From Gammaproteobacteria bacterium (GTDB taxonomy: Bacteria > Pseudomonadota > Gammaproteobacteria > Steroidobacterales > Woeseiaceae): a stretch of DNA of 40,017 bases. Where the stretch lies: NCBI GenBank assembly GCA_004357475.1, contig SMWE01000068.1:1-40017 (forward strand). Reading direction: 5' to 3'. The position numbers and the translations under genes are program-made. The stretch's first letter is position 1; every line of letters begins with the position of its first letter. Positions 29,341 through 30,174 of the stretch are shown piece after piece. Under the pieces are notes generated by a model. That model saw nothing but the letters and a program-made list of their open reading frames with translations, ran no database searches and had not been told where the DNA came from.

Positions 29341-29369
29341 TTGACTGCCCCCGGGGGCGGTCGTATCAT
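29341..29369 (+). promoter_or_regulatory. Promoter of the tRNA cluster, with GC-rich discriminator
   Basis: TTGACT (29341-29346), exactly 17 bases, TATCAT (29364-29369), then CGTGCCCCCGCC. The strongly GC-rich bases after the -10 are typical of stable-RNA promoters under stringent (ppGpp/DksA) control. Transcription should start near 29376, about 60 bases before tRNA-Pro. Confidence 0.6.
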
Positions 29370-29681: not shown

Positions 29682-29758
29682 GGTGGGCGTAGCTCAGTTG
29701 GTAGAGCCCCGGGTTGTGATCCCGGTCGTCGTGGGTTCGAGTCCCATCGTCCACCCCA
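29682..29758 (+). tRNA. tRNA-His(GTG)
   Basis: 77 bases counting the extra 5' G(-1) that tRNA-His carries opposite C73. The acceptor GTGGGCG pairs with CGTCCAC, and CCA is encoded. The anticodon loop TTGTGAT carries GTG. The D-arm GCTCAGTTGGTAGAGC is intact, in contrast to the copy that follows 16 bases later. Confidence 0.95.
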
Positions 29759-29774
29759 TTTCAGAATAGAAATA

Positions 29775-29863
29775 GGTGGGCGTAGCGGGGCCGCGAAGCG
29801 GCAAGGTAGAGCCCCGGGTTGTGATCCCGGTCGTCGTGGGTTCGAGTCCCATCGTCCACCGCA
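29775..29863 (+). pseudogene. Decayed second tRNA-His copy with a hairpin replacing part of the D-arm
   Basis: From GGTAGAGCCCCGGG to CATCGTCCACC it is identical to the intact tRNA-His upstream. In the D-arm TCAGTT is replaced by 18 bases, GGGGCCGCGAAGCGGCAA, whose CCGC-GAA-GCGG core folds on itself; the D-stem GCTC/GAGC is therefore lost. The 3' end reads C-GCA instead of C-CCA. I regard it as a non-functional duplicate, although a processed transcript cannot be ruled out. Confidence 0.8.
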
Positions 29864-29885
29864 ATTCGCCCTGGCGGGCGAATTG
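29862..29885. repeat. AATTCGC-type palindrome after the tRNA-His copy
   Basis: CAATTCGCC-CTGGCG-GGCGAATTG, 9 bp arms. Similar palindromes lie at 38288-38308 and 38527-38542, so this is a small repeat family rather than a lone hairpin. It has no T-run. Confidence 0.6.
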
Positions 29886-29904
29886 AAACGCAAATGGTTG
29901 GTGC

Positions 29905-30056
29905 GAATTGATCTTTAGTGCGACAGTATTATTGGCACGATGACCAGCCACGATGTATATCGAAGGCGAATGGCCGGCGCGAATTGATGTTTAGTAATAT
30001 ATTCGAAGAACAAGATAGCTTGGAACCACGAATAGCGGATCACTAAAGATCAATTC
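29905..30056. repeat. Element bounded by a perfect 16 bp inverted repeat, with a third internal copy
   Basis: GAATTGATCTTTAGTG at 29905-29920 and its exact reverse complement at 30041-30056 enclose about 120 bases. A one-mismatch direct copy, GAATTGATGTTTAGT, lies at 29981-29995. No ORF is supported inside. It fills most of the 234-base gap before tRNA-Lys. It may be a tiny non-autonomous element or a structured RNA. Confidence 0.5.
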
Positions 30057-30097
30057 TCACCTGTCAACAAAGTTATGCTGATCAACGCGGGAGAATT

Positions 30098-30174
30098 GGG
30101 GAGCTAGCTCAATTTGGCAGAGCAAGCGGCTCTTAACCGCTAGGTTCAGGGTTCGAGTCCCTGGCTCCCCACCA
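30098..30174 (+). tRNA. tRNA-Lys(CTT)
   Basis: 77 bases, acceptor GGGGAGC/GCTCCCC, A73 and encoded CCA. Stem AGCGG/CCGCT closes the loop CTCTTAA, giving anticodon CTT for AAG. The D-arm GCTCAATTTGGCAGAGC is regular. Many related bacteria rely on Lys(TTT) only, so this is the extra isoacceptor. Confidence 0.9.

Follow-up and report, generated by a model that had tools for sequence, protein, structure and literature searches.

Genes for tRNAs are regarded as uniform and under strong constraint. Several kinds of small repeat are nonetheless known in or beside them: the rtT repeats of E. coli tyrT carry a tRNA 3′ end, and in the mitochondrial DNA of fungi and algae, double-hairpin elements and GC clusters are very small, are thought to be mobile, and include insertions in tRNA loops. 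Integrase att repeats at tRNA genes are partial tRNA copies lying by intact genes. Among dispersed bacterial repeats, GTAG REPs have GTAG directly before a short hairpin (PMC3733652).

The hairpin module described here resembles each of these systems in part. Like GTAG-tagged REPs and BIMEs (RAYT-associated), it has GTAG by a short, GC-rich stem-loop whose stem varies in a compensatory way, forms head-to-tail clusters and is found in the same tRNA-Phe leaders as GTAG REPs; unlike them, it is confined to one fixed point in the D arm of tRNA copies, takes its GTAG from the tRNA, has four unpaired bases before the stem, and shows neither dispersal nor a link to a Y1 transposase. With rtT repeats it shares tandem units beside a tRNA gene that hold a piece of that tRNA, but its upstream units carry a 5′ half with an inserted D-arm hairpin, and no Rfam family matched; the rtT-type layout of tandem terminal segments is seen in the upstream copies of relatives, and the copy studied here occurs once and spans the whole tRNA. 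Double-hairpin elements and GC clusters are likewise very small hairpin elements, but they are mitochondrial, of other sequence and dispersed. In att repeats, which probably delimit islands, the 3′ half is unaltered, whereas the module units are about 70-170 bp long and have a new D-arm hairpin. The module would be classed as a variant among tRNA-associated or REP-like repeats, its D-arm hairpin within tRNA copies being unlike REP or rtT. We found no paper describing it in the open-access literature and no family for it in Rfam.

In the window (the whole 40,017-nucleotide stretch of DNA that was analysed), a tRNA cluster reads Pro-Arg-His-(copy)-Lys on the + strand, with the following features.

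29341..29369, + strand: promoter-like site TTGACT-17-TATCAT, upstream of the tRNA cluster (consensus scan)
29683..29758, + strand: intact tRNA-His (GTG) (ARAGORN; Rfam 63.0 bits)
29775..29863, + strand: full-length tRNA-His copy with the D-arm hairpin module and GCA for CCA (sequence comparison; Rfam 32.9 bits)
29782..29809, + strand: whole module as modelled, GTAGCGGGG..RGGTAG (model R1, 50 bits here)
29787..29804, + strand: 18-nt insert GGGGCCGCGAAGCGGCAA in place of TCAGTT (direct comparison; recurs in other tRNA copies)
29790..29802, + strand: 5-bp hairpin GCCGC-GAA-GCGGC with a GNA loop (stem covaries across relatives)
30098..30174, + strand: tRNA-Lys (CTT), the next intact gene downstream (ARAGORN)

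Sixteen bases separate the intact tRNA-His from the start of the second His sequence. The consensus scan of the window found 2 promoter-like sites against 1.4 expected in shuffles, and no terminator-like site lies between the site at 29341-29369 and 30336. In the copy, G-1 (29775), the acceptor 5′ strand (29776-29782), TA (29783-84) and GC (29785-86) precede the insert, and GGTA GAGC (29805-29812) follows it. The acceptor 5′ strand, TA, GC, GGTA and GAGC are those of the intact gene, as are the anticodon arm, variable loop, T arm and acceptor 3′ strand, with 97% identity from 29805 to 29867. Direct comparison thus agrees with a preliminary description of this locus that a hairpin-bearing insert replaces TCAGTT, that the anticodon and T arms match the intact gene, and that the CCA is altered (to GCA, at 29861-63). 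That description further held that the D arm of a second tRNA-His copy had been replaced by a self-complementary 18-mer; the second copy and its D-arm hairpin stand, but the D arm is not wholly replaced, as G10-C25, C11-G24 and the D-loop GG are retained (a D stem of 2 bp), and the self-complementary part is 13 nt long (a 5-bp stem), flanked by GGG and AA.

Neither ARAGORN nor a whole-window Rfam scan reports the copy. The covariance search of both sequences that had been proposed was made as a focused scan with the Rfam tRNA model, which gave the copy 32.9 bits (gathering score 29) with a D-loop insertion, against 63.0 bits for the intact gene; no Rfam family other than tRNA matches it at the gathering score. 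The minimum-energy RNA fold is a cloverleaf for the intact tRNA-His and a non-cloverleaf structure for the copy. Because it is missed by ARAGORN, scores so low beside its neighbor, and has a 2-bp D stem, a GCA end and a non-cloverleaf fold, the copy does not look like a functional tRNA, and we conclude that it is not a normal one.

A search with the window copy returned, besides many ordinary tRNA-His genes, its module-bearing 5′ part in other genera and families. The strict pattern GTAGCGGGGYN9RCNRGGTAG had 35 matches in 27 of 396 genomes of the order, compared with 3 for the reversed pattern; all of those whose context was read lie in tRNA-His or tRNA-Phe copies on the same strand, adjoining the intact cognate gene wherever the contig extends far enough. 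When the GTAG requirement was dropped in the 107 genomes of the family, 18 of 20 matches were in His, Phe or CAT-tRNA copies (CAT-anticodon copies in G001 and, two in tandem, in G008), and the remaining 2 were coding sequence. The covariance model R1 matched in 37 of 392 order genomes (the match in G016 is coding, by chance) and added a second CAT-anticodon tRNA, present in G003 as three tandem 76-nt copies with the stem GCGAC-GTA-GTCGC. Outside the order, the module was found in tRNA-Phe leader copies of three genomes, G745, G534 (three tandem copies) and G438, the last two matched by R1; a match in G593 is coding and due to chance. Four kinds of tRNA therefore bear the module: His, Phe and two different CAT tRNAs, which are probably elongator Met and Ile2.

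Searching relatives for the same copy, as had also been suggested, yielded hairpin-bearing His copies in other genera (G012, G018, G020, G026, G057/G139 and G173), and none at the six readable His loci of the same genus (G001, G004, G005, G007, G010 and G011). Within that genus the module occurs at His (G000, the window's genome, which has one copy), Phe (G001, G007) and CAT tRNAs (G001, G003, G008), and since the other readable His loci lack it, gains look dynamic. Presence across the order is sporadic (∼9% of genomes), a distribution equally compatible with a tolerated repeat and with a useful element. Because the module recurs in relatives, a chance origin of the one in the window is excluded. 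Carriage by phages or viruses was rejected, as viral contigs had 0 matches to the strict pattern, and so was carriage by plasmids, which gave only ordinary tRNA-like matches.

True module matches whose context was read occur only in tRNA copies, on the same strand and beside the intact cognate gene, and the copies are of two types: upstream copies of the 5′ half, often in tandem, and longer downstream copies such as that of the window. The upstream type consists of the acceptor 5′ strand, the D arm with the module, and the anticodon arm; upstream Phe copies have a promoter-like TTGACN..TAATAC site before them and the intact gene after them, and are often repeated, with the leader as the unit. 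Upstream Phe and His copies usually have GTAGGC where the tRNA has GTAGAGC. Many copies show new pairing in the anticodon arm (e.g., GACTGAAAATC-TC-GATTTTCAGTC in G030 and GGACTG..CAGTCC in G534), and some downstream copies are further interrupted by insertions, at the variable loop in G026, G012 and G082 and at the T loop in G017. Most homologous copies are without the 3′ half. Among 54 tRNA-Phe leaders, 20 have the module and one more (L142) has a module interrupted by another element, and no half-copy among them retains the native D loop; even in a sample enriched for carriers, this absence of module-free half-copies is informative.

The module has the form AGCGGGG-[stem-GNA-stem]-ARGGT at the same place in partial copies of several tRNAs. 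Of the stems in 39 distinct copies, 21 are GTCGC/GCGAC and 8 are GCCGC/GCGGC, with GCCAC/GTGGC, GCTGC/GCAGC, GCGGC/GCCGC and others making up the remainder, and the loop is GNA in 35; GCGAC/GTCGC and GTTGC/GCAAC are additional stems in relatives. Across 21 distinct module sequences, 95% of cells are paired and 4 of the 5 stem pairs have changes on both sides, in counts that take related sequences as independent; none of 500 shuffles scored as high, and sliding the partners destroys the signal. Because related sequences are not independent, this is strong evidence but not formal proof that the hairpin is a structured module with compensatory stem changes. Because the search patterns demanded GGGG and ARGG, and R1 took these over from them, the conservation of these flanks is partly imposed; the AT-rich G438 leader still keeps AGCGGGG..AGGGTAGGC, which is suggestive.

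Copies of at least four tRNA genes share one module, which keeps its position and strand and shows compensatory stem changes. The window copy belongs to a recurrent class: tRNA copies, partial or whole, that neighbor the intact gene and have GGGG-[5-bp stem, GNA loop]-ARGG in place of the 5′ side of the D loop. These findings bear on two earlier proposals. A private template switch is excluded because nearly the same sequence sits at the same position in unrelated tRNAs (copies of tRNA-Phe and CAT tRNAs) and in other genera, families and orders, which template switching as the origin of the insert cannot give. A recent duplication, proposed from the identity of the two His sequences, does not follow from it: several other genera have hairpin-bearing His copies, and gene conversion could explain the identity. 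The preliminary description was right that point decay would not produce the hairpin, and its suggestion that the copy may be a tRNA-like RNA with another role is retained.

We regard the module, with about an even chance of being right, as a REP-like, tRNA-embedded hairpin, spread along with local duplication or conversion of tRNAs and maintained because of its fold. The most likely mechanism would be local duplication combined with transfer of the module between tRNA copies. Upstream-type copies may have arisen by local tandem duplication of the leader and 5′ half, and downstream-type copies, as in the window, by duplication of the gene and its trailer, the hairpin module presumably being gained together with the duplicated copies. 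Between tRNA copies, the module could be transferred by homology or gene conversion through the shared GTAGCTCAGTTGGTAGAGC, or could move as a very small REP-like palindrome. A hairpin-bearing copy would be tolerated because the intact gene remains; it would be transcribed within the tRNA precursor and yield no working tRNA, and it may persist because its hairpins maintain a folded spacer or leader there.

A broader claim, which we make only tentatively, is that these copies constitute a new class of tRNA-derived structured elements in Gammaproteobacteria, either half-tRNA leader repeats with a conserved D-arm hairpin that would govern how the cognate tRNA folds or is processed, or tRNA-specific micro-hairpins that would spread with no known transposase. 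Over a wide phylogenetic range, copies of several tRNAs have one small hairpin at a shared position, and it is missed by tRNA finders and is not in Rfam. If it acts as a working RNA, it would add a new control layer in tRNA precursors; if selfish, it would be a very small repeat living only inside tRNA copies.

A specific regulatory role is unlikely, though it draws on computed folds. The half-tRNA, through its acceptor 5′ strand and GGGG, might pair with the 3′ half of its neighbor (acceptor 3′ strand and T arm) and so control how that neighbor folds or matures, the D-arm hairpin being the other conformation. The copy lowered the predicted cloverleaf probability in 17 of 18 tRNA-Phe precursors, from about 0.9 for tRNA-Phe alone to a mean of 0.38 with the leader; restoring the native D loop brought it to 0.65 (paired p = 4e-5), changing GGG to ACA raised it in most, and shuffled leaders interfered less. 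However, in an equilibrium fold, a computation that ignores the order of co-transcriptional folding, every tRNA 5′-half copy will compete with the gene, and copies reverted to the native 5′ half interfered about equally (0.44, p = 0.12). One locus (L191) shows no effect, and His modules match the His T arm poorly; the idea that the module pairs with its cognate T arm suits Phe but was rejected as a general rule. We also rejected folding insulation, in which the hairpin would shield the downstream tRNA: computed precursor folds point the opposite way, with the module lowering the chance of correct downstream tRNA folding.

It is also rather improbable that the module is a genuine REP whose movement depends on a Y1 transposase of the RAYT type, one that makes use of the D-arm GTAG of the tRNA. 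The layout of GTAG followed by a short hairpin is that of GTAG REPs (PMC3733652), and in the window GTAG (29782-29785) is followed by CGGG and the hairpin; ordinary REPs (TGTAGGAGCGGC...GCCGC) occur in the same tRNA-Phe leaders, and an inverted REP-like CTACA ends the G008 copy. However, the module is not dispersed, being single in the window's genome and confined, in 107 family genomes, to tRNA copies and two coding matches, and GTAG is native to the tRNA and missing 3′ of the module in CAT-tRNA copies. Y1_Tnp, present in 66 of the 107 genomes (one match in that of the window), showed no association with the module (about 16 of 22 carriers vs. 50 of 85 others), and a RAYT is not supported; it was undetected in one carrier (G020, 98% complete) and none is listed for another (G017, a single contig). 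In four tRNA-Phe leaders (L119, L122, L134, L144), ordinary GTAG REPs (TGTAGGAGCGGC...GCCGCGA) cluster between promoter and gene, which marks the tRNA-Phe leader as a repeat hot spot.

An ordinary, functionless pseudogene, produced by one duplication and a chance template switch, is improbable: the copy is single in this genome and has lost its CCA, readable His loci of the genus have no His copy, and the GGGGC of the insert could be templated by the GCCCC of the gene, yet near-identical modules occur in other tRNAs and other orders, the stem covaries, and the 54 tRNA-Phe leaders include no hairpin-free half-copy. For the insert, this reading is contradicted; for the window copy itself, loss of function is possible. 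Finally, that the copy serves as a second, non-canonical tRNA-His that works despite an enlarged D loop, as its intact G-1, acceptor, anticodon and T arms and an Rfam score just above gathering would allow, is very improbable in view of the 2-bp D stem, GCA for CCA, half the score of its neighbor, the non-cloverleaf minimum-energy fold and the lack of a 3′ half in most homologous copies.

Other repeats and insertions were seen around these genes. In the window, 29863-30061 is an element with inverted ends GAATTGATCTTTAGTG / CACTAAAGATCAATTC (36-nt arms, 78% complementary) and a direct 33-nt repeat; CTTTAGT elements like it follow tRNA-His in many relatives (G001, G004, G007, G010, G011, G019, G020, G032), and one of this type splits the D-hairpin of the G001 tRNA-Phe copy (L142). 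The 3′ half of tRNA-Phe (30-76, up to 100% identical) is repeated elsewhere in many family genomes, in some 1-30 kb from the intact gene, and these repeats are likely integrase att sites of islands. A tRNA-Phe copy in G017 (L091) keeps its CCA and has both a D-arm hairpin and a T-loop insert of roughly 60 nt, and all three tandem CAT-tRNA 5′ halves of G003 (L184) have CAA at the anticodon position. In G059 (L007, about 1370-1420), a GC-rich insert, possibly an intron or an insertion, interrupts tRNA-Arg (TCT) near the anticodon. Arrays of 3′ ends similar to rtT lie downstream of tRNAs in G004, G008, G021, G030 and G032; such tandem units, with the 3′ end of a CAT tRNA or tRNA-His, follow the intact gene in L102 (G008, about 1810-2000), L008, L010, L011 and L024. 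In three loci (L010 of G032, 1600-1640; L011 of G021; L024 of G004), the downstream repeats turn the tRNA-His anticodon arm into a long palindrome (GACCGGGATC..GATCCCGGTC).
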